Of a DNA stretch of 63,627 nt, positions 5,083 through 33,124 are shown one piece after another. The first letter of the stretch is position 1. Every line of letters begins with the position of its first letter. The notes under the pieces are model-generated. The model was given only the letters and a program-made list of their open reading frames with translations. It made no database searches and was not told where the DNA came from. Location: contig JAJRVS010000259.1 in the NCBI GenBank assembly GCA_024277195.1, positions 1 to 63,627 of the forward strand, in the 5' to 3' direction. The stretch is from Verrucomicrobiota bacterium (lineage in GTDB: Bacteria > Verrucomicrobiota > Verrucomicrobiia > Verrucomicrobiales > DEV007). The position numbers were made by a program, and so were the translations under genes.

Positions 5083-5143
5083 TAGGCGATGAACCAGTGT
5101 TTGTTGCTTTGTGGAAAGGCCAAAATTAAAACACCTCATTGTC

Positions 5144-6520: not shown

Positions 6521-6638
6521 GAGTAAGGACCTAGTGAGTCTTATTCTAGCTAGTCTCTAAAATGGGTCAGACCTCATGCAATAAAGTTCTTGTCTCATAT
6601 GGGGGGCGTGGTGTGGGGCGGGAGAGGGGGGGCAAGCT

Positions 6639-7406
6639 TCAGCTGTGCATCACTTGACCGCCGTCGATGTTGATGGTTTGGCCGGTGATGTTTTTGGCTT
6701 GGGGGGAGGCGAGGTAAACCGCCATGGCTCCGTATTCTTCGGGGTCTTGCCATTGGCCGAGCGGGGCGATGCGCTTGATTTTTTCATCTGCCCAGTCTTG
6801 ATAACTTTCGGTTACTTGCGAAGCTTTCCAGACGGAGCGGTTGAGACTCGTTTTTACCATGCCCGGAGCCAAGGCGTTGGAACGTATGCCATCAGCTGCT
6901 AAGTCGCGGGCGACACATTGCATGAAGTTGATCAGGCCTGCTTTCGAGGCGCTGTAGGGTGGATCGGTTTGTGATCCGACCTGCCCAGCTACGGAGGTGA
7001 TGAATAATAGTGAGCGTCCGTGGCTGTCGCCTTGCTGCATGTAGGGGGCAAAGGCTTGGGCGGTGTGAACGGCTCCGATCAGATTGACCTGTAGGACTTG
7101 CATCCAGTCCTGGGGGGCGACGTTCCAGAAAGGAAATCCGGTTTTGCCCGATCCGATGCCAACACTGAAGATCACATGATCGATTTGTCTGAATTGAGAA
7201 GCCAAGTCGTCAGCGGCCTTTTTTATAGCTTCGAAGTCCGCTACGTCGGCCTGACGGACTTCCCCTAGAAATCCAGTGATCTCTGCTTCACGGTCGATGA
7301 TAGCGACCTGAGCTTCCTCGGCGATAAAGGCGTCCGCAATCGCGCGTCCAATTCCCTGGGCACCGCCGACGATGATTGCGGTTTTGTTTTGTAAATTTAA
7401 ATTCAT
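6639..7406 (-). CDS. SDR family NAD(P)-dependent oxidoreductase
   Basis: A 255-residue classical short-chain dehydrogenase. It shows the N-terminal TAIIVGGAQGIGRAIA glycine motif, an acidic residue after beta-2 (AIIDRE) that tends to favour NAD, the catalytic Ser (FITSVAG), the YxxxK motif (YSASKAG) and the C-terminal TGQTINIDGG stretch typical of FabG-like members. It follows the interrupted ATP-grasp-like gene by 9 nt and is probably the last gene of a ruvA-led minus-strand operon. Substrate is unknown. Confidence 0.85.
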   Translation of the reverse strand: MNLNLQNKTAIIVGGAQGIGRAIADAFIAEEAQVAIIDREAEITGFLGEVRQADVADFEAIKKAADDLASQFRQIDHVIFSVGIGSGKTGFPFWNVAPQDWMQVLQVNLIGAVHTAQAFAPYMQQGDSHGRSLLFITSVAGQVGSQTDPPYSASKAGLINFMQCVARDLAADGIRSNALAPGMVKTSLNRSVWKASQVTESYQDWADEKIKRIAPLGQWQDPEEYGAMAVYLASPQAKNITGQTINIDGGQVMHS

Positions 7407-7415
7407 GTCTTTTTA

Positions 7416-8807: not shown

Positions 8808-8834
8808 GGCTGGAAAAGATTTTGTGGCGCGGCC

Positions 8835-9446
8835 TTATTGTAGCAATCGCAAGGCCGCCCGCAGGATATCATCGGAGCTGCTGGTGCCATCCGGATTTTC
8901 TTTGCAGGCTTTGATCACGGCGCTGTGGGCGGCGTTTTGCTTGAAACCCAGTGAGATGAGGGCGAGCACGGCATCGTTTTTGAGAGAATTTTCGGAAGGG
9001 CTTGCTCCTTCGCTGCTGGCGGCTTGCTCCCAAGCGCTGGTGACTCCGACTTTGTCTTTGAGTTCGAGCACGATGCGTTCGACGGTTTTTTTACCGAGTC
9101 CCTTGATGCGGGAAAGGGTGTCCAGATCGCCGGCCACTACAGCGTTTTGGAAATCCGAGGCGCCTAGACTGCCAAGGAGCGACATGGCGACTTTGGGGCC
9201 GACTCCGGAGACACGGTTGATGAGCAGTAGAAAGAGGTCGCGCTCTTCATCTGATTTAAAACCATACAAGGTGAGTTCCTGCTCGCGCACATATAGATAG
9301 GTGAGCACTCGAACTTTGTCGCCGACCTGGCCAAGTGAGTCGGGGCCGCCGAGCGGCATGGTGATCTGGTAGCCGACCCCCTGCACATCGAGAGTGACAC
9401 GGTTGGGGAGAATATGGGCGAGGGCGCCGTGGAGAAAGGTTATCAT
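8835..9446 (-). CDS. ruvA: Holliday junction branch migration protein RuvA
   Basis: A 203-residue protein of normal RuvA length. It has the N-terminal OB-fold (MITFLHGALAHILPNRVTL and GVGYQITMP), the helix-hairpin-helix region (INRVSGVGPKVAMSLL and IKGLGKKTVERIVLELKDK) and the C-terminal RuvB-interacting domain (about 150-203). RuvA tetramers bind Holliday junctions and load the RuvB motor. It is the first gene of a minus-strand run that continues into the ATP-grasp-like and SDR genes; ruvB and ruvC are not in the window. Confidence 0.95.
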   Translation of the reverse strand: MITFLHGALAHILPNRVTLDVQGVGYQITMPLGGPDSLGQVGDKVRVLTYLYVREQELTLYGFKSDEERDLFLLLINRVSGVGPKVAMSLLGSLGASDFQNAVVAGDLDTLSRIKGLGKKTVERIVLELKDKVGVTSAWEQAASSEGASPSENSLKNDAVLALISLGFKQNAAHSAVIKACKENPDGTSSSDDILRAALRLLQ

Positions 9447-9482
9447 GGAAATTGTGGTGTTTGGGAACTAGGATAAATCTTG

Positions 9483-9513
9483 TCTGGTCGTTTGGACGGT
9501 GACTACGACCAGA
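9483..9513. promoter_or_regulatory. Inverted repeat in the divergent ruvA / secreted-protein intergenic region
   Basis: Perfect 9-bp arms TCTGGTCGT (9483-9491) and ACGACCAGA (9505-9513) are separated by 13 nt, in the 101-bp gap between the divergent starts of ruvA (9446) and the gene at 9548. Placement between divergent promoters fits an operator; no regulator is identified. Confidence 0.35.
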
Positions 9514-9547
9514 ACTTAGTTTAATTGTCGTTATATTTTTTGCTACT

Positions 9548-10183
9548 ATGAAAAAGAGTTTATTCCAACTGTGTGTAGCGGTTTTGTGTTTGTTTAGAGT
9601 AACGGGATTGGTTGCAGGAGATAAGCCGGCGGTGAAAAGAGATTCGGATGCAGCAAAAATGCGTGCTGGTATTGTGTTTGAAACGCTGGCGATTGATCCT
9701 GAGGTGTTCACCCGGGTGGAGGGAGGGAAAAAATCGGTGATGGTACCGGTTCACGAGTGGGATTATGGGGTGAAACTGTTCACTGCTGAGGAATGGAAAA
9801 AAAGGAACTATAAAAAAGGTGAATTCAGAGGCCTGGCGGAAGTGGTGGCGGATAAAGTTTTGCAAGAAGTGCAGCTCGAATTTATCCGAGATAGGCGTGA
9901 TGTCGTTCTTTATGCAGTGATTCGCAGTGAGGACCCGTTTTTATCGAGCATCCTGCTTTCTAAAAAATTCCTGCCAAAATTTAAAAAAAATATGGGAGAA
10001 ATCGTGAGGGTGGTCATTGTTGATCGTCACGAATTGTATGTTTTTCCCGATTCAGGGGGGAAATTGGACGAATATGGGCCGGTTTTGGCGCAGCGGTATA
10101 AAACGACCCGACAGCCGGTAAGCCTTGAGATATTCCAGGTGAGCGATAAAGGTTTAAAAATAATCGGGACATTAGGGCGATAA
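9548..10183 (+). CDS. Secreted protein of unknown function
   Basis: A 211-residue protein with an N-terminal signal peptide (MKKSLFQLCVAVLCLF, cleavage near LVAG, about residue 24). The mature part is Lys-rich, mixed alpha/beta, without Cys pairs or repeats that I recognise. It is monocistronic by spacing: 101 bp from ruvA on the opposite strand and 100 bp before the next plus-strand gene. No function can be assigned. Confidence 0.7.
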   Translation: MKKSLFQLCVAVLCLFRVTGLVAGDKPAVKRDSDAAKMRAGIVFETLAIDPEVFTRVEGGKKSVMVPVHEWDYGVKLFTAEEWKKRNYKKGEFRGLAEVVADKVLQEVQLEFIRDRRDVVLYAVIRSEDPFLSSILLSKKFLPKFKKNMGEIVRVVIVDRHELYVFPDSGGKLDEYGPVLAQRYKTTRQPVSLEIFQVSDKGLKIIGTLGR

Positions 10184-10283
10184 TTAATAATTTTCATAAA
10201 TTATATAAAAATTGTAAAAATTTCTCAGTGAGCTCTGGGAAAAGGGTGGCTTAGTTGGACGGAATGTGATACACTGCTGGTCT

Positions 10284-10607
10284 ATGGCTAATCCAAGAAG
10301 AACCAGATTTTCAAGACGTGTGCCCGATCATGTAACAAATGAACTTGTTGCCGTACTCTCCGACAAAGCTACCTTTGGCTTCAAAGACCTATTTATAGTG
10401 GTTTACGAAAACCTGAAAGCTAGAAATGCCGTCAGCGGTGGTGAAGAAATGCTTCGTTTGCGTGCTTACGAAAAATTACAGAACCTGGTAACCCGTGGTT
10501 TGGTCAGTAAAGAGGGCAAGCAATACACTGCGCTCGATAACATCAAAGACGCGATCACTGAGGCGGCTCCTAAACCCGAGCTTCCCAAAGAAGAAGCGGC
10601 TAAATAA
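10284..10607 (+). CDS. Small basic protein of unknown function, possibly winged-helix
   Basis: A 107-residue protein. The ATG at 10284 is chosen because residues from MANPRRTRFSRR give a compact basic start; an alternative start lies 18 nt upstream. It has a basic N-terminus, helices (VTNELVAVLSDK, MLRLRAYEKLQNLVTRG) and a short YTALDNI strand-like stretch. This is reminiscent of small helix-turn-helix or winged-helix folds, but the similarity is weak. The C-terminus is Glu/Lys/Pro-rich (PKPELPKEEAAK). It ends 87 nt before a strong terminator. Confidence 0.7.
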   Translation: MANPRRTRFSRRVPDHVTNELVAVLSDKATFGFKDLFIVVYENLKARNAVSGGEEMLRLRAYEKLQNLVTRGLVSKEGKQYTALDNIKDAITEAAPKPELPKEEAAK

Positions 10608-10694
10608 GGCCGATTGTTCTATTTTGCCTGAGGGTTTTGGGTGATATTTCTTTGAAATATTCATCTGGACGAACTCCGGAATCGAATTAAACTC

Positions 10695-10740
10695 ATCGCT
10701 GTGCGGACTTGAATAAAGTCGGCACAGCGATTTTTCGTTT
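10695..10740 (+). terminator. Intrinsic terminator
   Basis: The stem is ATCGCTGTGC (10695-10704) pairing with GCACAGCGAT (10722-10731), with an inner GACTT/AAGTC stem separated by one mismatch, followed by TTTTCGTTTT. It closes the small basic protein gene before nuoA. Confidence 0.88.
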
Positions 10741-10798
10741 TAGTCTACAGACTTGGCTCTGTGGGCGTATTTAGATTCACCATCAGTTACAGATCATT

Positions 10799-11182
10799 AT
10801 GACAGATAATTACGAAGCCGTTTTATTGCAGTTCTTGCTGGCAGCGGGATTTGCCGGAGTGACCTTGTTGATTTCCGTCTTGCTCGGTCAGCGGGCGAAA
10901 AGAAACAAACTGAAGGACAGTGCTTACGAGTGCGGCATGTTGCCGGTGGGCGATGGTCAGTCGCGTTTCAGTGTGAAATTTTACCTGGTGGCGATGTTGT
11001 TTGTATTATTTGACATCGAAGTGGTGTTTTTCTACCCTTGGGCGGTGGTTTTCAGGGATTTACTGGAAGAGACCGAGACCAAAATGTTTTGCTGGAGCAT
11101 GGCGAGTTTTGCCGGCATTCTATTTGTTGCTTATCTATACGCGCTTAAAAAAGGCGCGCTCGATTGGAAGCCCCGCCATTGA
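10799..11182 (+). CDS. nuoA: NADH-quinone oxidoreductase subunit A, isolated
   Basis: A 127-residue membrane protein of typical NuoA length with three predicted transmembrane helices (about 8-28, 62-82 and 94-115). Family-typical blocks include KDSAYECGMLPVG with the conserved Cys, RFSVKFYLVAMLFVLFDIE and the following VVFFYPWAV. NuoA is part of the membrane arm of complex I near the quinone site. The next plus-strand gene is a Dabb protein rather than nuoB, so nuoA is separated from any nuo operon here. A strong terminator lies upstream, so it is probably transcribed from its own promoter. Confidence 0.93.
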   Translation: MTDNYEAVLLQFLLAAGFAGVTLLISVLLGQRAKRNKLKDSAYECGMLPVGDGQSRFSVKFYLVAMLFVLFDIEVVFFYPWAVVFRDLLEETETKMFCWSMASFAGILFVAYLYALKKGALDWKPRH

Positions 11183-11262
11183 CATTTGACTCGGGAAACC
11201 GTCAGTATAGGAGATTGTAAGGATGGTTGCTGGCGAGCGACTGTTGTAATAACTTTCCTCCC

Positions 11263-11580
11263 GTGGTTCATTTTATAGCACTCTACAAATTGAAAGCCGA
11301 TCTGCCGGAAGGCCGAGCGGAGCAGATGATACGCCGTAGTCGCAGTCAGTTGTTAAAGATTCAAGAGGTGCTGAATGTGAGATCGGGGGTGCGTATTCAC
11401 GAGGAGTGTGAATGGCCTTTTTTTCTAGCGATTGATTTTGAGAACCTCGACAAGCTGGAGATGTTTCGTGAGGATCCGGTTTTGCTGAAGTTCGCTCAGG
11501 AGGTGATCCAGCCAAATACCAGTGACTGCATGGAATGTGTCTATGAGATGGAGCCGGGCAAGGACGTCAAATACTCCTGA
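11263..11580 (+). CDS. Dabb family (stress-responsive alpha/beta barrel) protein
   Basis: About 105 residues if translation starts at the GTG at 11263, which gives the family-typical opening MVHFIALYKLK; an upstream TTG at 11227 would add 12 residues of poor similarity. The dimeric ferredoxin-like Dabb fold is suggested by the alternating strands VVHFIALYKL and FFLAIDFENLDKLEMF plus the C-terminal VIQPNTSDCMECVYEM. Functions vary and none is predicted here. It runs convergently into the aminotransferase gene, overlapping its 3' end by 40 bp. Confidence 0.72.
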   Translation: MVHFIALYKLKADLPEGRAEQMIRRSRSQLLKIQEVLNVRSGVRIHEECEWPFFLAIDFENLDKLEMFREDPVLLKFAQEVIQPNTSDCMECVYEMEPGKDVKYS

Positions 11581-12899
11581 AGGCAGTCGGCGAAGTAGCG
11601 CAGTTCGTCTTCGTTGATGTTGAAAGGAGGCACGAGAGAGAGCACGTTGCCTGCGGGCGAGGCTGAGAGGGTGATGAGGCCCTTTTTTAGTGAATGAACC
11701 ACAAAGCCGGAGGTCGCGGCGCGGTCGGGTTGGCCGTTGGGGGTGAGGATTTCCACTCCTAATAATAAACCGCGCCCGAGGATTCGACCGCGTGAGGGCA
11801 GGTCGATTTTCTCGAGCAGCTTGGTGAACAGGGAGCCGCGTTGTTGCACGTGTTTTGCCAGATCGGACTTGCTGTGCAGGTCGAGCGCAGCCAGGGCCAT
11901 GGCACAAGCGGGGGGGTTGCCGAGGTGGGTGGTGGTGTGAATGGCTTCACCGTCAGAGGGGGGCCAGGCACGATCCATCAGTTCGGCGGTTCCGACACAG
12001 GCGGAGAGAGGTAGTCCGGAGGCGAGGCTTTTGCCAAGACAGATCAAGTCCGGGACGGTTTGGTTGGCTTCGCAGGCAAACAGGCTGCCGCAGCGGTTGA
12101 GGCCGGTGAGGATTTCATCTGCGATCAATAAGCTGCCGGTATCGTCGCAGATTTGTCGTAATAGGGGAAGGAAGCCCGGGGGTGGAACGACTTTGCCCCC
12201 ACGGCCTTGGATCGGTTCTACCAGGATGGCTCCGATGGGGTTCTGCTCGATTTTTTTGCGCAGTGCTGTTTCCAGGGTTGTTAATTGTTCGAGGCAGTCA
12301 GGGTTGCAGGGGAGTTTTTGTTCGCAAAAGCATTGAGGAAAGGGCAGGGGATGACCGAAATCGGAGAGCTGGGCGACAAAGGGGGCGCTGAAACGGTGCA
12401 TGGCGCCGGCGGCGAGGGTTCCGTAACCTAGGCCGTGGTAGGCATTTTCAAACGTGATCACGCTGGGTTTTCCGCTAGCGAGCAGGCTGGTTTTGAGGGC
12501 GGCTTCGATGGATTCAAAGCCGGTATTGCCGAGGATGACTTTAGCGGGGCCTTGCCCCCAGCGTTCAAAGGTGATTTGGCTGATTTTTTCACAAAGCCGG
12601 ACTTTGAGCTCGGTGGGATGGACGTCGCCCATGCCGTGAATCAACTGGTCAGCTTGGTTTTTCAGGGCGGAAAGCACGGTGGGGGGGGAATGGCCAAGGC
12701 CACTGACGCCAAATGCGCTGGTGAAGTCGAGCAGGCGGTTGCCATCGACGTCCCAGACATTAGTGCCGCTGGCACGCTGCCAGAAGACTGGGAATTCCGA
12801 GTTCATGAAGGTCACGTTGCGGCATTCGTGTTGCGACAGTCTCGCGGCGAGGTCGAGGGACCTGGGGCCGGGGATGGCAGTCTGGATGTCGGGCAGCAT
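11541..12899 (-). CDS. Class III PLP-dependent aminotransferase
   Basis: A 452-residue fold-type I aminotransferase of the acetylornithine/GABA/diaminopelargonate class. Visible motifs are WDVDGNRLLDFTSAFGVSGLGH at the N-terminus, NTGFESIEAALK (phosphate binding), ENAYHGLGYG, the DEILTGLNRCG block and the PLP lysine in CLGKSLASGLPLSA (Lys290). An insert with four cysteines lies at about 190-202 (QCFCEQKLPCNPDC). No biosynthetic neighbours are present, so the amino donor and acceptor are unknown. It overlaps the Dabb gene at its 3' end. Confidence 0.85.
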   Translation of the reverse strand: MLPDIQTAIPGPRSLDLAARLSQHECRNVTFMNSEFPVFWQRASGTNVWDVDGNRLLDFTSAFGVSGLGHSPPTVLSALKNQADQLIHGMGDVHPTELKVRLCEKISQITFERWGQGPAKVILGNTGFESIEAALKTSLLASGKPSVITFENAYHGLGYGTLAAGAMHRFSAPFVAQLSDFGHPLPFPQCFCEQKLPCNPDCLEQLTTLETALRKKIEQNPIGAILVEPIQGRGGKVVPPPGFLPLLRQICDDTGSLLIADEILTGLNRCGSLFACEANQTVPDLICLGKSLASGLPLSACVGTAELMDRAWPPSDGEAIHTTTHLGNPPACAMALAALDLHSKSDLAKHVQQRGSLFTKLLEKIDLPSRGRILGRGLLLGVEILTPNGQPDRAATSGFVVHSLKKGLITLSASPAGNVLSLVPPFNINEDELRYFADCLQEYLTSLPGSIS

Positions 12900-13121
12900 G
12901 ATCGGTGGTGATGTCGGGAAAGGCGGAAACTAGCTCTATCGCGGTCGATCAGATCAGGCAAGCAAGAATCGTTTTACATGATCGGGCATTTTTGATAAGC
13001 TGAATGAAATAGGGATTCACAATGGCGGACTGAGGGGGCTTTAAGCGCCTTCGCAAATGGGCTGGCAGCGATTGTTGATCTGAGTGGTGAAGTTGGATTA
13101 ATATTGGGAAAAGGAGAAATT

Positions 13122-13766
13122 ATGAGAAAAATATCAAAATGGTCGAAAATAAAAAGCCTCGCAGCAGGCATGATGATGGCGGTGGTCATGGGATCGGTCG
13201 CGGTCGCGGGATCGGGCAATTTACAGAAAGTTTTTAATGATGCCAAGGCGGATTATGATGCGGGAGAGTTTGAAAAGGCAGCGATCGGGTTCCGTAAGGT
13301 GCTGAAATACCAGCCGAGTTATGTGTATGCGCGCAAGTATCTGCCCCAGACGGAGGCGATGCTCAAAAAGGGTAAAACCGTGGTCACGCTGGAAACTAAG
13401 TTGGCTAAGTTGCAGGTGCCGAATGTGAATTTTGATAACGCTAGCTTGGGCACCGTGTTGACTTATCTGTCTCAAAGGTCGGAGGAAATTTCCGGGGGCA
13501 AGGTGATTGCGAACTTTATTTATAAGGGGCCGCGGGAGGACAAGGACTCAAAAATGGTGACCTTGAAACTGGGCAGTGTGCCGATGACGGAAGTCATTCG
13601 TTATGTCGGGCAGTTGACTGGAACTAAGTTTAAATATGAGGAATACGCCGTGGTGGGAGTGCCTGCAGTTGATGTCGCTAGAGCCGAGGTGAAGTTGGAG
13701 CAAGGGGCAGCGGCTTCTAACAAACCTAAATTCGATGACAAACCCAAAGATCCCTTTGCTAAATAG
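13122..13766 (+). CDS. Secreted protein with TPR-like and secretin-N-like regions
   Basis: A 214-residue protein. The start at 13122 is fixed by an AAGGAG ribosome-binding site at 13111-13116, rather than the earlier in-frame codon at 13104. A signal peptide (about 1-29, ending GSVAVAG) is followed by a TPR-like pair of helices (FNDAKADYDAGEFEKAAIGFRKVLKY). The region from VPNVNFDNASLGTVLTYLSQ to AVVGVP resembles the short N-terminal domain of secretins and TonB-dependent receptors. It has no secretin pore domain and no pilus or secretion neighbours. An envelope role is likely, the specific function unknown. Confidence 0.75.
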   Translation: MRKISKWSKIKSLAAGMMMAVVMGSVAVAGSGNLQKVFNDAKADYDAGEFEKAAIGFRKVLKYQPSYVYARKYLPQTEAMLKKGKTVVTLETKLAKLQVPNVNFDNASLGTVLTYLSQRSEEISGGKVIANFIYKGPREDKDSKMVTLKLGSVPMTEVIRYVGQLTGTKFKYEEYAVVGVPAVDVARAEVKLEQGAAASNKPKFDDKPKDPFAK

Positions 13767-23097: not shown

Positions 23098-24216
23098 ATG
23101 AGGAAGATACGGGAGTTTTTGTTGGGGCCGGAGGGGCAGACGAATTATTATCACGTGGTGAGCCGGACGACGGGACGGGATATTTTGTTTGAGGATGATG
23201 AGAAGGAAACTTTTCGAATTCTGATGCTTAAGCAGTTGAAATTCAGCGGGCTGCGGGCGCTGGCTTGGTGTTTTATGGGCAATCACTTTCATTTGTTGTT
23301 GGAGGTGCCGGACAGTGAGCTGGCGACAGAGGGGTGGACGGATGAGGATTATATCAGGCGACTGGAGGTGTTTAAGAATGAGTGGTCGAGTAAGTTGGTG
23401 CTGGATGAGGTGGAGCTGTTTAGGGGGAATGGGGCGGATGAAAAGGTGAGTGCGATTGCGGAATTGGTGAAGGCGCGGTTGTTTGATCTATCGATGTTTA
23501 TGAAGGAGTTGAAGCTGAAAATGACATTGGCTTACAACAGAAAACACGGTCGGGTGGGGACTTTGTGGGAGGGGCCGTTTAAGAGCGTGTTGTTAGAACC
23601 TCCTTCGCCATTCTCCTTCGCTAAAGCTACGGCGAACAAGGGGCTTCGGCGATCAGGGGGGGCTGATAAAGAGAGTGGAGAGAGCAGTGATGCGCTGCGG
23701 ATGGTGGCGGCTTATATTGATCTGAATCCGGTGCGTGCGGGGCTGGCGCAGGAGCCGGAGGGTTACCGTTGGTGTTCGTATGCGGCGGCGGTGGCCGGGG
23801 TGCGCGGGGCGAGGCAGGGGCTGTGTTATGCGGTGACGGGTCGGAGTCGGGTGGCGTGGAAGAAGGTGGCGCAGGAGTATCGGTGTTTGCTGTATGCAAA
23901 AGGGGAGCAGGTGAACGCGGATGTGACGGTAGACGGTTACAACAAAGGAAAGGGTGGTTTCAGCCGGGCGGAAATCAAGGAAGTGCTGGAATCAGGTGGG
24001 CGTTTGCCAGTGGCGGAGGCTTTGCGGTGCCGGGTGAGGTATTTTACTGATGGAGCGGTGTTGGGCAGCCAGAGGTATGTGGATGATTTTTTTGAGAGCA
24101 AGAGGGGGTGTTTTGGCGCGCGTCGTAAGGACGGGGGGCGGAAGATGCGTGGGGCGCAGTGGGGGGATTTGAGGGTATTGCGGGATTTAAAGGTGGATGT
24201 GATAAGAGGGGCGTAA
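23098..24216 (+). CDS. REP-associated tyrosine transposase-like protein (RAYT / Y1 family)
   Basis: A 372-residue IS200-like transposase domain protein. It shows NYYHVVSRT near the N-terminus, the HUH metal site in CFMGNHFHLLLE, the candidate tyrosine region LAYNRKHGRVGTLWEGPFKS and the AAYIDLNPVRAGL block typical of RAYTs. A C-terminal extension of about 90 residues (GYNKGKGGFSRAEI onward) is also common in RAYT subgroups. No terminal repeats of an insertion sequence flank it, so it is a domesticated-type gene rather than a mobile element. An in-frame low-similarity insert lies between SVLLE and ALRMVAAY (see the REP-like element). Confidence 0.88.
   Translation: MRKIREFLLGPEGQTNYYHVVSRTTGRDILFEDDEKETFRILMLKQLKFSGLRALAWCFMGNHFHLLLEVPDSELATEGWTDEDYIRRLEVFKNEWSSKLVLDEVELFRGNGADEKVSAIAELVKARLFDLSMFMKELKLKMTLAYNRKHGRVGTLWEGPFKSVLLEPPSPFSFAKATANKGLRRSGGADKESGESSDALRMVAAYIDLNPVRAGLAQEPEGYRWCSYAAAVAGVRGARQGLCYAVTGRSRVAWKKVAQEYRCLLYAKGEQVNADVTVDGYNKGKGGFSRAEIKEVLESGGRLPVAEALRCRVRYFTDGAVLGSQRYVDDFFESKRGCFGARRKDGGRKMRGAQWGDLRVLRDLKVDVIRGA
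23602..23657. repeat. REP-like palindromic element inside the RAYT gene
   Basis: The segment contains CCTTCGCC (23602-23609) and GGCGAACAAGG (23631-23641), with TTCGCC/GGCGAA pairing, around CTTCGCTAAAGCTACGG. This is in the style of short palindromic REP elements that RAYT proteins recognise. It is in frame and encodes an extra stretch (PSPFSFAKATANKG) at a point where RAYT proteins are normally continuous. Confidence 0.45.
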
Positions 24217-24380: not shown

Positions 24381-24914
24381 ATGGGATACCGCGTTTTTAT
24401 ATTTGTATTATTGCTGATCACCTGGGTGCTGCTTTCAGGCCAGTTTGACGCTTTTCATTTGATCCTGGGCTTGATTTCATGTGCTTTGGTGACGTGGATG
24501 TCGTCGGATTTGTTGTTTCGCACCCGAGAGGACCCGGTGATGCAGCGGGTGCAGGAGGGCTGGAAGCTGGTTTGGTATTTTTTGTGGATGTTGTGGCAGA
24601 TTTTTCTGGCAAATATCGCAATTTTGAAGCTGGCACTGTCACCGAGCGCTTTACAGCAGGTTAATCCGAGCATTGTGCATTTTAAAACCAAGCTGAAGTC
24701 AGATTTCGCTAAGTTTTTGCTCGCTAATTCGATCACTTTGACTCCGGGTACGGTGACGATCAAAATCAGAGGGGATGATTTTTACGTGCACGCGATCAAT
24801 GAGGAGGCTGCGGCGGGTTTGGACGGGGAAATGGAGCGGCGTATCGCGCGTATTTACCGGGCGGAGCGTGCTGCGTCCAGCAGTGAATCCAGTGGAGAGG
24901 AGGATTCCCAATGA
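24381..24914 (+). CDS. Cation:proton antiporter subunit E (MrpE/MnhE, MbhA-like)
   Basis: A 177-residue protein with two N-terminal transmembrane helices (FIFVLLLITWVLLSGQFDAFHLILGLISC) and a cytoplasmic domain carrying TLTPGTVTIKIRGDDFYVHAIN, the family signature. It opens the Mrp/Mbh-like operon; its stop overlaps the next ATG by 4 bp (ATGA). MrpE is needed for assembly of the antiporter complex. Confidence 0.93.
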   Translation: MGYRVFIFVLLLITWVLLSGQFDAFHLILGLISCALVTWMSSDLLFRTREDPVMQRVQEGWKLVWYFLWMLWQIFLANIAILKLALSPSALQQVNPSIVHFKTKLKSDFAKFLLANSITLTPGTVTIKIRGDDFYVHAINEEAAAGLDGEMERRIARIYRAERAASSSESSGEEDSQ

Positions 24915-25222
24915 ACACCTTTTTTGTTTGGTCGGGCATTGCCTTGTTGCTGATGATGGTGCCGATTTTTTATCGTATGCACATCGGCCCGACAGCGATT
25001 GACCGGATTTTAGCGGTTAATGTGATTGGCACTAAAACAGCGGTATTGTTGGTTTTCATCGGAACGATTTTCCCTGGGGGGCGAATTGAAATGTTCGTTG
25101 ATTTCGCCTTGGCTTACGGCTTGTTGAATTTTATTGGATCGTTGGCAGCAGCGAGATATTTCCATCGTTCCAAGGCGGTGGCTGGCGAAATTGATGTGGA
25201 GGGAGAGGCTGAGGGGTCCTGA
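24911..25222 (+). CDS. Cation:proton antiporter subunit F (MrpF/MnhF, MbhB-like)
   Basis: A 103-residue protein with three transmembrane helices and the family block MHIGPTAIDRILAVNVIGTKTAVLLVFIG. Overlaps subunit E by 4 bp and precedes subunit G by 3 nt. The C-terminus is Glu-rich. Confidence 0.92.
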   Translation: MNTFFVWSGIALLLMMVPIFYRMHIGPTAIDRILAVNVIGTKTAVLLVFIGTIFPGGRIEMFVDFALAYGLLNFIGSLAAARYFHRSKAVAGEIDVEGEAEGS

Positions 25223-25225
25223 CAA

Positions 25226-25606
25226 ATGAGTATCATTATTAACATCATCAGTATCGTTTTCATCCTAGCCGGCCTGGTATTTTTCTTTGGCTCGGTGGTG
25301 GGAGTGGTGCGCTTTCCGGATTTTTACACCCGCATGCATGCGGCGGGCAAGGGGGACACCTTGTCGAGTTTGTTGGTGGTCATGGGTTTTGCGGTGTATC
25401 ACCTAGGTCAGATTCACTGGACGGATTTTGCTTGGGCTGATTTGTTGGTGGTGATCAAGTTGCTCGCTATTTGTGCTTTTATCATGCTGACTTCGCCAAC
25501 CGCGACCCATGCCTTGATGGATGCGGGTTATGAGGACGGTATCGAGCCGCTGTTGCGGAAAAAGGGCAATGCTTTACAGGATGAGGAGATAGGAGATAGG
25601 AGATAG
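25226..25606 (+). CDS. Cation:proton antiporter subunit G (MrpG/MnhG, MbhC-like)
   Basis: A 126-residue protein with three transmembrane helices. It contains VGVVRFPDFYTRMHAAGKGDTLSS and LTSPTATHALMDAGY, both diagnostic of MnhG. It is tightly spaced in the operon. Confidence 0.93.
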   Translation: MSIIINIISIVFILAGLVFFFGSVVGVVRFPDFYTRMHAAGKGDTLSSLLVVMGFAVYHLGQIHWTDFAWADLLVVIKLLAICAFIMLTSPTATHALMDAGYEDGIEPLLRKKGNALQDEEIGDRR

Positions 25607-25613
25607 TTTTTAC

Positions 25614-25859
25614 ATGATCTGGCAGTTCGACATTATTATTCTTATTTTCCTGGTGATCACGGCGGTGATTTCTTTACGGGTGAAGGATTTGTTAGCGGCT
25701 TCGATGGTCTTTGGTACGTATAGTTTTTTGATCTGTCTTTTATGGGCGGGTATGGGGGCGGTGGACGTGGCTTTTACTGAGGCGACGGTTGGTGCGGGTA
25801 TCAGTGCGGTTATTTTGATCGCTACGGTTTACAATACCAGGAGGGATTCATCGGATTAA
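25614..25859 (+). CDS. Small DUF4040/MbhD-like antiporter subunit
   Basis: An 81-residue protein with three transmembrane helices, containing DLLAASMVFGTYSFLICLLWA and VDVAFTEATVGAGIS. In canonical Mrp systems this domain is fused to the C-terminus of MrpA; in the archaeal membrane-bound hydrogenase it is the separate subunit MbhD. Here it is separate, so the operon follows the Mbh-like layout. Seven nt after subunit G. Confidence 0.86.
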   Translation: MIWQFDIIILIFLVITAVISLRVKDLLAASMVFGTYSFLICLLWAGMGAVDVAFTEATVGAGISAVILIATVYNTRRDSSD

Positions 25860-25863
25860 GAAC

Positions 25864-26625
25864 ATGAAGTGGGTCGGACTTATAGCGGTGATATTTACTG
25901 GGGGCTTACTGCTCTCGGCGATGGATGATTTTCCTAATTGGGGTGATGCGCATTCCCCTGCCAATGCCAGTCCGGTGTCACAGTATTATATCGAAAAAAC
26001 CATCGAGGACTCAGGGGTTCCTAATATGGTGACAGCGGTTTTGGCGGATTATCGCGGTTATGATACGATGTTCGAAACGGTAGTGGTATTGATCGCGGGT
26101 ATTGCGATCATGGCGATCCTGCGAGTGATGAATGGAGTCCCTGGTGGGGCACGGCCTTCACCTGCGCATGAGATTGGCGATCAACATGATATCATTATTG
26201 GTACCACTTGCCGTTTGCTGATCCCGGTTTTGCAGTTGTTTGCACTTTATGTGATTGCGCATGGTCACCACAGTCCGGGCGGGGGGTTTCAAGGGGGGGT
26301 GATTCTGGGGGCGAGTTTTATTTTGACTGCTATCGCCAAGGGGCTGGATCCGGCCTTGGAAAGATTACCCGAAAAACGCTACGTGAAACTTGCTTTTGTC
26401 GGAGTGGTGATTTATTCCGGCTTTGGTGTGGCGTGTTTGTTACTGGGGGAGAACTTTTTGGACTACGGGGTTTTGCAGGTGTTGCTGCCGACGATCGACG
26501 CGGCCGAGGCTCGTTCGCACAGTATGCTGGGAGTTGAAGTCGGTGTCGCTTTTACGGTGTCTGCGATCATGTTTGCGATCTATGCAAACCTAGCCAGCAA
26601 GGGTGAACTGGAAGGAGGGCTTTAA
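25864..26625 (+). CDS. MbhE-MnhB fusion-like antiporter subunit
   Basis: A 253-residue protein. Residues 1-90 (SPVSQYYIEKTIEDSGVPN, then NMVTAVLADYRGYDTMFET) match the MbhE or MrpA C-terminal type segment. Residues from about 105 (IIIGTTCRLLIPVLQLFALY, then GHHSPGGGFQGGVILGASFI) are a MnhB domain with its conserved HHSPGGGFQGG loop. In archaeal Mbh these are two genes, MbhE and MbhF. About six transmembrane helices. Confidence 0.88.
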   Translation: MKWVGLIAVIFTGGLLLSAMDDFPNWGDAHSPANASPVSQYYIEKTIEDSGVPNMVTAVLADYRGYDTMFETVVVLIAGIAIMAILRVMNGVPGGARPSPAHEIGDQHDIIIGTTCRLLIPVLQLFALYVIAHGHHSPGGGFQGGVILGASFILTAIAKGLDPALERLPEKRYVKLAFVGVVIYSGFGVACLLLGENFLDYGVLQVLLPTIDAAEARSHSMLGVEVGVAFTVSAIMFAIYANLASKGELEGGL

Positions 26626-26634
26626 ATTTTTGTC

Positions 26635-27111
26635 ATGAGTGAAATTACGAGTCAATATCTGATCGATCACTTCAACTTCTGGGTTGCGGTGGTGTTGATG
26701 ATGATCGGGCTGTATGCCATGATCACGAAGAATAATCTGATCAAAAAACTGATAGGCATGTCGATTTTCCAGACGGCGATTATTTTGTTTTATGTGTCTG
26801 CCGGGGTGAAAGAAGGGGCGACGATTCCGATTCTGGAGCATCACGTGGCGGAGACGGAGCAGGTGGAAGCGGGTGAGCACGCGGAGGGGCATTCCACAAC
26901 AAAGGCTTCGTCCAGTCACGAGGTTCATGCGATCAATCCTGATGATTATTCAAACCCTTTACCCCACGTTTTGATGCTGACGGCTATCGTGGTGGGGGTG
27001 GCGACGCTGGGGGTGGCTTTGGCGGTGTCGCAGGTGATTTATAAAAACTACGGAACTTTGGAGGAAGACGAGATTCTTGCTAAAATAAAAGCAGCGGAAA
27101 ACGATGGCTGA
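26635..27111 (+). CDS. Cation:proton antiporter subunit C (MrpC/MnhC, NuoK-like)
   Basis: A 158-residue NuoK-like protein with three transmembrane helices (FWVAVVLMMIGLYAMI; GMSIFQTAIILFYVSA; and HVLMLTAIVVGVATLGVAL) and the NPLPHVLMLTAIVVG family block. Between helices 2 and 3 lies a His/Glu-rich insert of about 50 residues (HHVAETEQVEAGEHAEGHS) longer than in most MnhC proteins. Its 3' end overlaps the first large subunit by 8 bp. Confidence 0.92.
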   Translation: MSEITSQYLIDHFNFWVAVVLMMIGLYAMITKNNLIKKLIGMSIFQTAIILFYVSAGVKEGATIPILEHHVAETEQVEAGEHAEGHSTTKASSSHEVHAINPDDYSNPLPHVLMLTAIVVGVATLGVALAVSQVIYKNYGTLEEDEILAKIKAAENDG

Positions 27112-28654
27112 GCAATACCCTATCATCGTATTACTGGTGCTATTGTTTGGAGCACTTTTTGTAGGTCTGGCCGGCATGGCGGATCGGCGGGTGTGTTTTC
27201 CTCTGACGATGACGGCCTTGGTTTTAGCGGTGATGGTTTCGGTGGGGATTTTGCAACGGGTGATCAGTGGCGGCGTGATTCGCTATTTTGTTGGTGGGTG
27301 GAGCCGGCCGGTGGGCATCGGTATCGAACTGAGGATCGATACAATCAATGCGCTGGTGCTGTTGACCATCACTACGGTGGGCCTATTGACGGCACTGTTT
27401 TCTTTCCGCCGGGTACAGGAGGACAAAACTGAAAAAACGCCTTTGTTTTACGTGCTCTATTTGCTGCTGATCATGGGCTTGTCGGGGATGGTGATCACTG
27501 GCGATGCGTTTAATTTGTATGTTTTGTTGGAGGTATCTTCGCTTACGTCTTATGCGCTGATTGCGATGGGTAAGTCGCGCCGCGCGGCAGTGGCGGCGTT
27601 CAGTTATATCATCATGGGAACGATTGGCGCATCGTTTTATTTGCTCGGCGTGGGATACCTCTATTTGCGCACTGGCACGTTGAACATGATGGAGATTCAT
27701 CAGGCGATTTTGGCTTTGGATGGTCCTTCGAGCACTATTGTGGTGGCTTTTGTACTGATCCTTGTTGGTTTGATGATCAAGATGGCTTTTTTCCCCTTGT
27801 TTGGCTGGTTGCCCAACGCTTACTCTTATTGCCCGTCGTCGACGTCCTGTGTGGTTGCACCGTTGATGACCAAAGTGGGGGTGTATGTGATGGTGCGGAT
27901 GATGCTGACAGTGTTTGGTACTGAGTGGGTGTTTGAAAACCTGCAGTACACCCAGTGGATGGTGGGCATCGCGGTGCTGGCGATTCTGGCAGGTTCAGTG
28001 ATGGCGCTAGCCCAAGTGGAATTGAAAAAAATGTTTTGTTATCTGATTGTCGCTGAGGTGGGTTACATGGTGGGCGGTGCTTGGATGGCGAATCATTGGG
28101 GCATGGTGGGCACGATTTATCACATCATGGGCGATGCTTTTATGACTTTGTGCATGTTTTTGGCTGCTGGTATTTTTGTCAAACAAGCGGGCGTGGTGCG
28201 CATCGATCAACTGGATGGCATGTTTCGCAAAATGCCGTGGACGATGGCGGGTTTTGTGGTGGGTGCTCTGGCGATGATCGGGATCCCGCCGACCTGTGGG
28301 TTTTTCAGTAAACTGTATCTCATTCGCGGAGGTATGGAGTCTGGGCATTGGGGGTATGTGATGGCGCTGTTGATTTCCAGTCTGGTGAATGCGGTGCTGT
28401 TTTTCAGGATTTTTGAGATTGCCTATTTCGGCAAAAAACCTGCAGAGGGTCATGGGCACCATGTAGATCATTCCGAAGAGAGTGTGATTAAGGAAGCGCG
28501 GCCGAGTGCTTTGATACCGCTTTTGGCAACGGCGGTGATTATTGTGTTGCTGGGGCTTTTTAATAGCAATCTGGTGGAGTTGATCGAACGCTCTTTGCAG
28601 GGTTCGGAGGTGATTGGAACGAGAGCTTTGTCTTCGAAAGGGGGGCTGGGCTGA
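27104..28654 (+). CDS. Antiporter large subunit D, copy 1 (MrpD/NuoN-like)
   Basis: A 516-residue protein with about 14 transmembrane helices. It carries the acidic membrane residue in GDAFNLYVLLEVSSLTSYAL and the Lys in GLMIKMAFFPLFGWLPNAYS, which belong to the proton-transfer path of the NuoL/M/N-MrpA/D superfamily. It lacks the extended NuoL lateral helix. The C-terminus carries a His-rich loop (EGHGHHVDH). It overlaps the C subunit by 8 bp. Confidence 0.92.
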   Translation: MAEQYPIIVLLVLLFGALFVGLAGMADRRVCFPLTMTALVLAVMVSVGILQRVISGGVIRYFVGGWSRPVGIGIELRIDTINALVLLTITTVGLLTALFSFRRVQEDKTEKTPLFYVLYLLLIMGLSGMVITGDAFNLYVLLEVSSLTSYALIAMGKSRRAAVAAFSYIIMGTIGASFYLLGVGYLYLRTGTLNMMEIHQAILALDGPSSTIVVAFVLILVGLMIKMAFFPLFGWLPNAYSYCPSSTSCVVAPLMTKVGVYVMVRMMLTVFGTEWVFENLQYTQWMVGIAVLAILAGSVMALAQVELKKMFCYLIVAEVGYMVGGAWMANHWGMVGTIYHIMGDAFMTLCMFLAAGIFVKQAGVVRIDQLDGMFRKMPWTMAGFVVGALAMIGIPPTCGFFSKLYLIRGGMESGHWGYVMALLISSLVNAVLFFRIFEIAYFGKKPAEGHGHHVDHSEESVIKEARPSALIPLLATAVIIVLLGLFNSNLVELIERSLQGSEVIGTRALSSKGGLG

Positions 28655-28655
28655 T

Positions 28656-30155
28656 ATGCCGGAAGTGATCCAGACTTACATGCCGCTGTGGGCTTGTTTG
28701 AGCGCCTTGTTTGCGGTGGTGCCGATTGTATTGCTGCGCAGGGAAACGTTCTTGCGTGAGGGGGCTACTTTTGTGGCGGGTTTTGTGATGCTGGGTTTTG
28801 TGATTTCGATGGTGCCCGAGGTGCTGGCGGGCAAGGTCTTGGAATGCACGCTGATTGAGATCACCGCGGATGTGCCGATCAAGTTCCGGGTGGACGGACA
28901 GGGTATGTTGTTTGCCTTGGTGGCGTCGAGTTTGTGGATTGTGACCTCGCTGTATTCAGTGGGTTATATGCGAGGATTGAAGGAGCATTCGCAGACGCGG
29001 TTTTTTGTGTTTTTTGCGGTTTCCCTGACGGCAACGATGGGGGTGGCTTTTGCTGGCAACCTGTTGACGCTCTATTTGTTTTACGAAATGTTGTCGCTGG
29101 CAACCTGGCCACTGGTGACTCATCATCAGGATAAAGAAGCACGTGGAGGTGGACGGAAATATCTGGCTTATTTGTTAGGCACCTCAGTGGGGTTTGCGCT
29201 GCCGGCTTTGATTTTTTGTTACGTCAAAGCTTCGGCGACTGGGCTCGAATTTTCAGCTGCGGGTTTCCTGGCCAGCACTGGGGTAGAAGGCTCGACCGCT
29301 CTGGTGCTGTTATTACTTTTCACTTTCGGCTTCTCCAAAGCGGGGCTGATGCCTTTTCATTCGTGGCTGCCTGGTGCGATGGTGGCACCGACCCCGGTGT
29401 CGGCTTTGTTGCATGCGGTGGCAGTGGTGAAGGTGGGCGTGTTCTGCATCATCCGGGTGTTCACCGGAGTATTTGGTTTGGCTTTTTTGAAGGAATTGGA
29501 CATCGCCATCGTGGTGTCCTGGATCGCGGCTTTCACGGTGATCACTTCGTCATTGATCGCCTTGACGCAGGATAATTTGAAGCGTCGGCTGGCTTTTTCG
29601 ACGATTGGTCAGTTGGCCTACATTATTTTGGGAGTGTCTTTGCTGGAGGATCGAGCGGTGATCGGCTCGATGGCACACATCGCCATGCATGCGGTGGGTA
29701 AAATCACTTTGTTCATGTGTGCGGGGGCGATTTTTGTGGCAACGGGCAAAAAATATGTCAGTCAGATGGACGGACTGGGACGCAAGATGCCGCTGACCTT
29801 TGTTGCGTTCACGATTGGAGCATTGAGTGTGATTGGGCTGCCGCCGACGGGCGGATTGATCAGTAAATTTTATTTGGTGACTGGCGCAATGGATGCGGGC
29901 CAACCATTGTTGGTGACCGTTTTTCTGGTGAGCACGCTATTGAACGCTGCCTATTTGTTGCCGGTCGGTTACCGCGCTTTTTTTCCCAGGGATCGGCAAC
30001 TGTCGAGTCAGCCCTTTTCTTGGAAAACAACGGCAGAAGCTCCTTGGGCAGCGGTGTTGCCACTTTGTGTGACTTCTATCTTGGCGATCGTATTATTTGT
30101 GAAACCTCAACTGCTATTAAAACTCGCCAGTCTGATGGTGAGTGATGTGGGATAA
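28656..30155 (+). CDS. Antiporter large subunit, copy 2 (MrpA/MrpD/NuoL superfamily)
   Basis: A 499-residue protein. The ATG at 28656 lies one base after the previous stop; an earlier start at 28614 would overlap it. About 14 transmembrane helices include LLTLYLFYEMLSLATWPLVTH (key Glu), GFSKAGLMPFHSWLPGAMVAP (key Lys) and LLHAVAVVKVGVFCIIRVF (His/Lys pair typical of the superfamily). It is clearly a paralogue of copies 1 and 3, with low mutual identity. Role: a further ion-translocating module. Confidence 0.9.
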   Translation: MPEVIQTYMPLWACLSALFAVVPIVLLRRETFLREGATFVAGFVMLGFVISMVPEVLAGKVLECTLIEITADVPIKFRVDGQGMLFALVASSLWIVTSLYSVGYMRGLKEHSQTRFFVFFAVSLTATMGVAFAGNLLTLYLFYEMLSLATWPLVTHHQDKEARGGGRKYLAYLLGTSVGFALPALIFCYVKASATGLEFSAAGFLASTGVEGSTALVLLLLFTFGFSKAGLMPFHSWLPGAMVAPTPVSALLHAVAVVKVGVFCIIRVFTGVFGLAFLKELDIAIVVSWIAAFTVITSSLIALTQDNLKRRLAFSTIGQLAYIILGVSLLEDRAVIGSMAHIAMHAVGKITLFMCAGAIFVATGKKYVSQMDGLGRKMPLTFVAFTIGALSVIGLPPTGGLISKFYLVTGAMDAGQPLLVTVFLVSTLLNAAYLLPVGYRAFFPRDRQLSSQPFSWKTTAEAPWAAVLPLCVTSILAIVLFVKPQLLLKLASLMVSDVG

Positions 30156-30158
30156 AAA

Positions 30159-30464
30159 ATGGCTCAACAAAAAAAAGAATTTGATTGGTTTGACCGTCCG
30201 AGCTCGCGGCGACTTTTGTGGCGTTTGTTGTGGGGAGCCTGCGCTCTGTCGGTGGTTGCCGAATTGTTTGTTCATCGCCATCCGTATTTTGGCATCGACG
30301 GGATTTTTGGTTTTTATGCGCTGTTGGGTTTCATCGGCTGCACGGTGATGATTTTATTGGAGAAGGGCTTGGGGAAATGGGTGAAGCGGAGTGAAGATTA
30401 TTATAATGATCACATCGAGGATGATGTGATTCCTGAAGATATAGATGACGGCCATGCTGACTGA
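30159..30464 (+). CDS. Small membrane subunit of unknown function within the antiporter operon
   Basis: A 101-residue protein with two transmembrane helices (about 22-40 with LLWGACALSVVAELFVH, and 48-66 with IFGFYALLGFIGCTVMILL). A basic segment (EKGLGKWVKRSEDYYND) and an acidic tail (HIEDDVIPEDIDDGHAD) follow. It is not a recognised MrpA-G or MbhA-H subunit. It begins 3 nt after copy 2 and overlaps the start of copy 3, so it is translated with them and is a likely accessory or structural subunit. Confidence 0.78.
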   Translation: MAQQKKEFDWFDRPSSRRLLWRLLWGACALSVVAELFVHRHPYFGIDGIFGFYALLGFIGCTVMILLEKGLGKWVKRSEDYYNDHIEDDVIPEDIDDGHAD

Positions 30465-32235
30465 TATCCCTCCATCACTATTGCTGTTCGCCGGAGCATT
30501 GATCACCATGCTGCTGCGTGGTCGTGCACGGAATATTTTCCTGGTGGTTTTGCCGGCTTACACTTTCTGGCACATCTCCCAGCTGTCTTTTAGCGAAGGG
30601 CCGAAGATGGAATTCCTGCCGACTTTTGATGCGCTCGAACCTTTGCGAGTGGACAAGCTCAGCAAAGCTTTTGGCTACATTTTCACCCTGAACGCGGCGG
30701 TTGCTTTCCTGTTTGCCTTTTATGTCAAAAAGGCGTTCCAGCATGTCTGGGCCTTGGTCTATATCGGCGCGGCTCTGGGGGTGATTTTTGCTGGAGACTT
30801 GATTACGCTGTATGTGTATTGGGAGTTGATGGCGATCTCGTCGGCTTTTGTGATCATTGCCCGTAATACCCTGCGTGCCAAGCAAGCTACTTTTCGTTAC
30901 GTGATGGTGCATATCTTTGGTGGGCTGTTGCTGCTGGCAGGTATTGTGATGACGGTTTCGTCGAGTGGCAGCATCGCCTTTGATAGTTTCGATTACGCTG
31001 ATGCCAATCTGGGCACCTGGCTGATTCTGGCAGGATTCCTAGTCAATGCGGCAGCGCCCTTATTTTCCTCCTGGCTGTCGGACGCCTATCCGGAAGCCAG
31101 TGTGACCGGCGGATTGATCCTCAGTGCTTATACCACCAAAACGGCGGTTTATACATTGCTGCGTGGCTTCCCGGGATGGGAACCGCTGATGGTGATTGGC
31201 TGCGTGATGGCGGTGTTTGGCATCATGTATGCACTGCTGGAAAATGACATGCGCCGCATATTGGCTTATTCGATTATCAATCAGGTGGGCTTCATGGTTT
31301 GTGCGGCGGGTATTGGGACCAAGATGGCGATCGCCGGAGCGGTGGCACATGCTTTTTGTCACATCATTTACAAGTCGCTGCTGTGGATGTCAGCTGGCGC
31401 GGTGTTGTATCGCACGGGGAAAAGTCGCTGCACGGATTTGGGGGGCTTGTATAAAACGATGCCGTGGACTTTGTTGTTTGGGGGCATTGGAGCTTTGGCG
31501 ATTTCGGCGGTGCCGCTGACCAGTGGTTTCACCAGCAAGACGATCATCATCGCTGCGACCGAGCATGAGAAGTTGTTTTGGATCTGGTTGATTTTGGAGC
31601 TGGCATCGGCGGGGGTTTTTCTCCATGCAGGGATCAAATTTCCTTATTTTGTCTTTTTTAATCAAGACAAGGGATTGCGTCCCAAGGAAGCTCCGAAGAC
31701 GATGTTATGGGCGATGGGGATTTTGGCTTTCTTGTGTATCTGGTTAGGGATCCGACCGCAGATGCTTTATGATATTTTGCCTTACGCGGTGGATTATAAA
31801 GCTTACACCGCTAGTCACCTGGTGACCCAGATGCAGTTGCTGATGTTCTCGGCGCTGGTATTTTTTCTCTTTCTACCGCTGCTCAAGCGCACGGCGACGA
31901 TCAGTTTGGATGTCGATTGGTTTTACCGCAAAGGAGGAGTGGCTTTTTACCGCTTGATGGACAAGAGCCTGAACGGGATCAACGCGAAAGTGGCCGATGT
32001 GATTGCTGTTCGATACACTGCGTGGTTGGGGCGATTTCTCCGCACCGCTCCGGCTGAAATATTGGGAGGTTTGTTGGTGCCTTATTGGATGGGGATAGGA
32101 TTGAATTCGGATGAGATAGCAGGGCGTAAGGCGAAGCTGGTATTACGAGCCAAACGCGGAGCGTTTCCGGTGGGGATCACGGCTTGTCTGGCGGTGATGA
32201 TGTTGGCGATTATTTATTTGGTGGCATTGGCCTGA
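30445..32235 (+). CDS. Antiporter large subunit, copy 3 (MrpD-like, 596 aa)
   Basis: A 596-residue protein with about 15-16 transmembrane helices; it starts at the ATG at 30445 or nine bases later. Key features are LITLYVYWELMAISSAFVIIA (Glu), APLFSSWLSDAYPEASVTGG, LSAYTTKTAVYTLLRGFPGW and a long C-terminal extension (RTATISLDVDWFYRKGGVAF) resembling the lateral part of NuoL-like subunits. It overlaps the small subunit by 20 bp and ends the operon. Confidence 0.9.
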   Translation: MTAMLTDIPPSLLLFAGALITMLLRGRARNIFLVVLPAYTFWHISQLSFSEGPKMEFLPTFDALEPLRVDKLSKAFGYIFTLNAAVAFLFAFYVKKAFQHVWALVYIGAALGVIFAGDLITLYVYWELMAISSAFVIIARNTLRAKQATFRYVMVHIFGGLLLLAGIVMTVSSSGSIAFDSFDYADANLGTWLILAGFLVNAAAPLFSSWLSDAYPEASVTGGLILSAYTTKTAVYTLLRGFPGWEPLMVIGCVMAVFGIMYALLENDMRRILAYSIINQVGFMVCAAGIGTKMAIAGAVAHAFCHIIYKSLLWMSAGAVLYRTGKSRCTDLGGLYKTMPWTLLFGGIGALAISAVPLTSGFTSKTIIIAATEHEKLFWIWLILELASAGVFLHAGIKFPYFVFFNQDKGLRPKEAPKTMLWAMGILAFLCIWLGIRPQMLYDILPYAVDYKAYTASHLVTQMQLLMFSALVFFLFLPLLKRTATISLDVDWFYRKGGVAFYRLMDKSLNGINAKVADVIAVRYTAWLGRFLRTAPAEILGGLLVPYWMGIGLNSDEIAGRKAKLVLRAKRGAFPVGITACLAVMMLAIIYLVALA

Positions 32236-32536: not shown

Positions 32537-33124
32537 ATGTTTACTGGAATTGTTGAATGTTGTGGAGAAGTAAAGTCGATGGAGCCGGTGGAGGCGGGGT
32601 TCCGTTTGTGTTTGGGCATTCCCTTTGCGCGGGAGTTGAGTGAGGGGGAGAGTGTGGCAGTGAACGGGTGCTGCCTGACGGTGACGAAGGTTGAGGATGG
32701 TTCGGTCGGTTTTGACTTGTTGGCGGAGACTTGCCGGGTGACGAATCTGGGCGATTTGAAGGCGGGAGGTGTGGTGAATTTGGAGCGTGCCTTGAGAGCG
32801 ACTGACCGGATGAGCGGGCATTTTGTGCAAGGGCATGTCGATGGCACCAGTGAGATTTTGGAATTAGAAGCGGTGGGACAGGATTATCGCTTGCGAGTTG
32901 CTTTGCCAGATCAGTTTTCGCGTTATTTGATCAACAAGGGCTCGATTTGCGTGGATGGCATGAGCCTGACGGCAGCAGAGGTGGGTGAGGATAGTTTCAC
33001 CATCTGGCTGATTCCTCACACCATGGAGATCACCAATTTAAAAAATCGTCAAGCTGGACAGCGGGTGAATCTCGAATTTGATATGCTAGCGAAGTATGTT
33101 GAGAAGCTGGTGGCAGTTAGATGA
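32537..33124 (+). CDS. ribE: Riboflavin synthase alpha subunit
   Basis: A 195-residue riboflavin synthase with two lumazine-binding repeats: MFTGIVECCGEVKSME and VNGCCLTVTKV in repeat 1, then GHFVQGHVDGTSEILELE and CVDGMSLTAAEVGEDSFTIW in repeat 2. It converts two 6,7-dimethyl-8-ribityllumazine molecules to riboflavin. It is isolated from other rib genes, and no FMN riboswitch was recognised in its leader. The gene symbol ribC or ribE depends on the organism. Confidence 0.95.
   Translation: MFTGIVECCGEVKSMEPVEAGFRLCLGIPFARELSEGESVAVNGCCLTVTKVEDGSVGFDLLAETCRVTNLGDLKAGGVVNLERALRATDRMSGHFVQGHVDGTSEILELEAVGQDYRLRVALPDQFSRYLINKGSICVDGMSLTAAEVGEDSFTIWLIPHTMEITNLKNRQAGQRVNLEFDMLAKYVEKLVAVR

Follow-up and report, generated by a model that had tools for sequence, protein, structure and literature searches.

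What does a Mrp/Mbh-like gene cluster do that encodes three large antiporter-like subunits and no hydrogenase? Such a cluster lies at positions 24381-32235 of a 63,627-nucleotide stretch of contig JAJRVS010000259.1, from a Verrucomicrobiota bacterium; this whole stretch was analysed and is called the window below. A preliminary description of the DNA proposed an Mbh-like antiporter module with three candidate ion-translocating units, which might move more ions per cycle or supply the ion module for a redox partner of unknown identity.

Gene content of the operon

The operon consists of ten complete, co-directional open reading frames on the forward strand, each starting with ATG and each overlapping its neighbour or lying a few bases from it. 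Searches of Pfam and NCBIfam assigned nine of the ten products to families; the three large ones, all matching Proton_antipo_M, are designated D1, D2 and D3. For D2, an ATG at 28656 was preferred over the mechanically called TTG at 28614. The gene order is E-F-G-DUF4040-(MbhE+MnhB)-C-D1-D2-S9-D3:

24381..24914, + strand: MrpE/MbhA-like subunit, 177 aa (Pfam MNHE, 6.6e-37)
24911..25222, + strand: MrpF/MbhB-like subunit, 103 aa (Pfam MrpF_PhaF, 1.4e-11)
25226..25606, + strand: MrpG/MbhC-like subunit, 126 aa (Pfam PhaG_MnhG_YufB, 2e-24; TIGR01300 above cut-off)
25614..25859, + strand: separate DUF4040/MbhD-like subunit, 81 aa (Pfam MbhD, 4e-17)
25864..26625, + strand: MbhE-like part (residues 35-88) fused to an MnhB/MbhF-like part (residues 111-236) (Pfam/NCBIfam)
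26635..27111, + strand: MrpC/NuoK-like subunit, 158 aa, with a His/Glu-rich insert (Pfam)
27104..28654, + strand: D1, MrpD/MbhH/NuoN-side antiporter-like subunit, 516 aa (Pfam/NCBIfam, tree, key residues)
28656..30155, + strand: D2, second antiporter-like subunit, 499 aa (Pfam/NCBIfam, tree, key residues)
30159..30464, + strand: S9, small protein with two transmembrane segments, 101 aa (conservation; no family match)
30445..32235, + strand: D3, distal antiporter-like subunit, 596 aa (NCBIfam NF009310 (PRK12668), 675 bits against a curated cut-off of 564)

The layout given in the preliminary description, with a separate DUF4040 gene and an MbhE-like N-terminus on the B subunit, was borne out by the reading frames and the family matches. 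The Mbh-like order and sequence also stood up, the best solved relative of D1 being MbsH of the archaeal MBS complex, and no hydrogenase gene was present in the operon. A scan for promoters and terminators returned matches exceeding the shuffle mean by less than 2 sd, most of them within genes.

MrpA is not one long gene here, as it is in groups 1 and 2, but is split over three genes. Judged by its sequence, the DUF4040 protein is the putative equivalent of the first part of the MrpA C-terminal region, which the MbhE part of the next gene would complete, following the correspondence between DUF4040 plus MbhE and that region given in PMC7419157. With D3 matching the N-terminal region of MrpA (see below) and DUF4040 plus MbhE its C-terminal region, each Mrp part (A-N, A-C, B, C, D, E, F and G) has a homologue in this one operon, which can thus be read as the full set of Mrp parts plus an extra D2 and S9. 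A standard Mrp whose complete mrpA gene lies elsewhere, a possibility raised in the preliminary description, was rejected: searching the rest of the genome revealed neither an MrpA gene nor a second MbhD/DUF4040 gene, the sole MbhD-family match being that of this operon.

Ancestry and fold of the large subunits

The operon could also have been explained by recent duplication of one gene as the source of the three large subunits. A tree of 117 antiporter-like subunits resolved D1, D2 and D3 as one clade each, separate from the others (support 94, 100 and 100, respectively), and haloarchaeal sequences fell inside all three. Since each clade spans bacteria and haloarchaea, D1, D2 and D3 are ancient paralogues, and recent duplication was rejected. 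D1 fell with MrpD and NuoN, and D2 and D3 on the MrpA/NuoL side, the latter placement having SH-aLRT support of only 87 in a tree built by a quick method. D2 is the extra unit, with an ancient clade of its own on that side. We give hardly any credence to an ordinary Mrp in which D2 and D3 are recent, redundant copies of MrpD; the one Pfam domain shared by D1, D2 and D3 agrees with such an origin, but the clades contradict it, as do private conserved residues found in D3 and likewise in S9.

An AlphaFold2 model of D3 (pLDDT 89.6) contains a 61-residue helix (490-550) followed by a helix at 555-570 and a last transmembrane segment at 576-595, the confidence of these C-terminal helices being lower than that of the core (block means 51 to 89). 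Foldseek ranked MrpA chains first and NuoL chains next, and with VIA-align NuoL chains matched D3 over residues 5..534, i.e. into the lateral helix. As modelled, D3 is the predicted counterpart of the MrpA N-terminal region and NuoL, lateral helix included.

Residues of the cation path and of the antiporter-like subunits

The carboxylates of the Mrp cation path are all kept. Glu56 of the DUF4040 protein corresponds to MrpA E706 and MbhD E69 in an alignment with MbsD and MbhD, and is Glu in 47/47 sequences; Asp67 and Glu71 of the MbhE part correspond to MrpA D792 and E796; and Asp31 of the MrpF-like subunit aligns with the conserved Asp of MrpF (alignment with MbsB, MbhB and MrpF chains), being Asp in 79/83, where this and all other residue counts are based on automatic ORF starts and one alignment. 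The MrpC-like subunit has Gln46 and Ile50 at sites taken by His, Asp, Glu or Asn in Mrp, MBH and MBS. The cation ligands usual in MrpC of a standard Mrp (His/Asn/Asp) are absent, and Gln at the ligand site is kept in 78/80 MrpC sequences from systems with three antiporter-like subunits. Without the usual Na+ ligands, the ion site would be non-standard and the ion may not be Na+. The same subunit (26635-27111) carries an insert of about 40 residues rich in His and Glu (EHHVAETEQVEAGEHAEGHS...) ahead of a PLPHVL motif; the insert is found in most family relatives, is weaker in Desulfobacterota and is mostly missing in Pseudomonadota.

The accepted model of Mrp assigns to each antiporter-like unit a Glu in TMH5 and one Lys in each of TMH7, TMH8 and TMH12, and the Lys of TMH7 is termed absolutely conserved and essential (PMC7419157); in Bacillus, the MrpA substitution K223A abolishes antiport (PMC5703873). 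D1 and D2 have the canonical set, with Lys on TMH7 in 84/84 and 90/90 sequences, respectively. D3 keeps Glu127 (TMH5), Lys232 (TMH8) and Lys365 (TMH12). At its TMH7 site stands Asn201, and Asn occupies this position in 101 of the 106 homologues, Lys in five. The Glu(TMH5)/Lys(TMH7) pair of an MrpA-N unit is therefore incomplete in D3, Glu127 being present and Asn201 replacing Lys. Helix 189-201 of the D3 model breaks just past Asn201, as expected for the TMH7 site. Set against the loss of activity in MrpA K223A, the Asn suggests that D3 may do something other than assumed, or nothing. His156 on TMH6 gained no support as a stand-in for the missing Lys, since three D3 proteins (L041, L048 and L049) have both His and Lys and two others have Lys together with Gln.

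A related change was seen in complex I. NuoM of the same genome (C34:4022-5581) and of its relatives has Leu at the TMH7 Lys site, within the motif GFG.LVSLFPFHxW, and the replacement was found in all 25 genomes of the order that gave a match, although this Lys is thought essential.

These residues bear on the idea that D1, D2 and D3 are three equal pumps, each moving one proton, so that about 3 H+ would be exchanged per Na+ as against the 2 H+ proposed for Mrp. If so, cations could be expelled at a weaker proton-motive force. All three subunits are of full length with conserved Glu(TMH5), Lys(TMH8) and Lys(TMH12); extra antiporter-like subunits have been argued to add ions per cycle (PMC9040806); and the lack of the TMH7 Lys in 25/25 verrucomicrobial NuoM suggests that this residue may be less essential than supposed. 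The prevalence of Asn in D3, that of the window included, at a position described as absolutely conserved and essential (PMC7419157) weighs the other way, and together with the unusual MrpC residues makes it unlikely that three equal pumps are the whole story. We regard this idea as rather doubtful.

S9 and the D2-S9-D3 cassette

S9 has two predicted transmembrane segments and is conserved in 20/20 relatives, which indicates that it is a real gene. Among the best 80 of at least 582 D3 loci, at least 77 had S9 immediately ahead of D3 or flanked by D2 and D3. The three genes also travel together: in a few loci the cassette lies ahead of the seven-gene part (L087) or on the strand opposite to it (L105), and in six of the best 80 loci, as in rhizobial plasmids, it is found between NuoK and NuoM, in the place of NuoL. 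The latter arrangement is that of the 'green' complex I, for which PMC9040806, in the part available, counts two large subunits and makes no mention of a small protein. The small protein between D2 and D3 of the rhizobial complex I aligns with S9 at 34-36% identity. A tblastn search of plasmids with S9 gave no match although relatives occur in rhizobial plasmids, S9 being too short and diverged for tblastn. We tentatively propose, with confidence a little short of even, that D2-S9-D3 is a self-contained, exchangeable end module, located at the outer end of stand-alone antiporters and substituting for NuoL in complex I, in which D3 works without the TMH7 Lys that is regarded as indispensable and S9 acts as a dedicated linker of D2 and D3.

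Distribution and genomic setting

D3 scored above the NCBIfam cut-off in 27 of 57 genomes of relatives: 27 of the 36 from the same family and none of the 21 from other families of the order. The ten-gene layout was present in all 20 same-family relatives whose loci were inspected. D3 was found in 8/145 genomes across the phylum, and a scan of named genomes yielded at least 582 D3 relatives. Among the best 80 of these, 54 loci carried a Mrp-type gene set and D3 on one strand; they belong to Desulfobacterota, Pseudomonadota, Nitrospirota, Planctomycetota, Acidobacteriota, Deferribacterota and Myxococcota, the Nitrospirota loci showing E F G D40 B C D1 D2 S9 D3. The layout is thus common in bacteria and haloarchaea, a little-studied but known kind and not something new. 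It is less unusual than the preliminary description held, being widespread and partly described (PMC7784846). Two Gammaproteobacteria contigs (L099 and L117) have NuoL-, NuoM- and NuoN-like genes about 2-3 kb upstream of C-D1-D2-S9-D3 and lack E, F and G, possibly a further arrangement.

No redox gene was conserved beside the operon in the 20 relatives or in the 54 wider Mrp-type loci, the latter having no recurrent neighbour beyond common regulators. The only recurrent neighbour in the relatives, named from its sequence, was a riboflavin synthase gene, downstream on the same strand in 9/20. The window has a riboflavin synthase-like gene just downstream of the operon on the same strand (32537-33124) and, directly upstream (23098-24216), a gene whose product, judged by its sequence, resembles REP-associated tyrosine transposases. 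No reading frame for a redox-module subunit of MBH or MBS was found in or beside the operon, and no NuoA-I subunit in the cluster. The genome's own NuoL, NuoM and NuoN of complex I are encoded on other contigs. A separate locus of this genome (contig C307, L033, about 1371-13590) has a DUF2309-like gene (849 aa) adjoining a NuoL-like gene (624 aa), with two SulP-type transporters and two carbonic anhydrase-like genes; judged by sequence, it is a candidate DAB-type inorganic carbon uptake locus.

An ion module for a redox enzyme encoded elsewhere, docking through D1 or D3 as in MBH, is improbable in this light. Sequence and gene order are nearest to archaeal MBS/MBH, and D2-S9-D3 does operate as part of complex I in other organisms; yet no redox gene adjoins the operon consistently, D3 bears the NuoL-type end helix, a mark of the row's distal end in complex I and Mrp, and the genome's complex I has large subunits of its own. 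Where D2-S9-D3 does meet redox genes, the setting is a complex I variant already described (PMC9040806). The unknown redox partner thus found no support, and a stand-alone cation/H+ antiporter is the best reading of the operon.

Relation to described systems

A close match by description is the group 3 Mrp of 'Ca. Nitrospira alkalitolerans', with mrpA-G and two NuoM/NuoL-like genes directly after mrpD; the accessible text of PMC7784846 names all seven mrp genes and does not mention S9. Group 3 is loosely defined by the presence of every subunit in an irregular gene order (PMC5703873), and the operon falls within this definition. Plasmid-borne haloarchaeal Mrp loci (Natronorubrum NZ_CP019328 and Halomicrococcus NZ_CP100467, G being unannotated in the latter) share the order E F G DUF4040 MnhB C D D D; their large subunits fall in the D1, D2 and D3 clades where placed, with Asn in D3 and Gln in MrpC. 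They differ in lacking S9, in a longer DUF4040 gene (about 180 aa) and in having MnhB separate from it.

D2-S9-D3 is shared by the 'green' complex I found in rhizobia and their relatives (PMC9040806), with 48% identity in D3; there, however, the cassette replaces NuoL between NuoK and NuoM of a full NADH:quinone oxidoreductase, and E, F, G and B are absent. Archaeal MBS and MBH (6u8y, 6cfw) were the top sequence hits in the PDB for DUF4040, B, C, F and D1. Their MbhA-H order is also that of the first seven genes here, and the MbhE-MbhF fusion is paralleled by the MBS subunit 6u8y_E; the operon lacks their hydrogenase or sulfane-reductase subunits and has D2, S9 and D3 in addition. The Mrp complexes of Bacillus, Anoxybacillus and Dietzia (7qru, 6z16, 7d3u) share all subunit types, D3 folding like the MrpA N-terminal region, but have two antiporter-like subunits, MrpA as a single gene, other ligands in MrpC and Lys at the TMH7 site of MrpA.

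Proposed function

We consider it likely that the operon encodes a multisubunit cation/proton antiporter of Mrp type (CPA3, 'group 3'-like) that stands alone. Nine gene families, the kept acids of the cation path, the tree clades, the D3 model, the lack of a redox neighbour and of another MrpA all argue for this function, as do the haloarchaeal version without S9, the widespread ten-gene version and the Mrp coupling model (PMC7419157). A literature search found no transport assay of any Mrp with three antiporter-like subunits. The operon departs from standard Mrp in three features, namely the single MrpA gene, the TMH7 Lys of the MrpA unit and the MrpC ligands; the Asn at the D3 site and the Gln and hydrophobic residues at the MrpC sites appear to be the new details.

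For the order of subunits in the complex, the identity and direction of the ions and their stoichiometry, we infer the following scheme. E, F, G, DUF4040, MbhE/B and C would form a cation (probably Na+) path beside D1, as in Mrp and MBH, and D1, D2 and D3 a row of three antiporter-like units, with D3 at the far end, where its lateral helix would brace the row in the manner of NuoL and MrpA. Protons driven by the membrane potential would move inward through D1 and D2, and probably through D3 in an altered way; coupled charge changes along the row would then expel the cation through the small-subunit module, a role in salt and pH homeostasis. D1 and D2 probably each provide a complete proton path. 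D3 has lost Lys(TMH7) while keeping Glu(TMH5), Lys(TMH8) and Lys(TMH12); it is probably an altered or weakly coupled end unit that braces the row, not a third equal pump.

The operon bears on how distant ion movements are coupled in Mrp and complex I. The shared cassette ties the 'extended' variants of complex I to antiporters that stand alone. In a widespread antiporter with a third unit, the natural Lys-to-Asn change at the supposed key site of that unit would make it easy to ask whether every unit moves a proton of its own.
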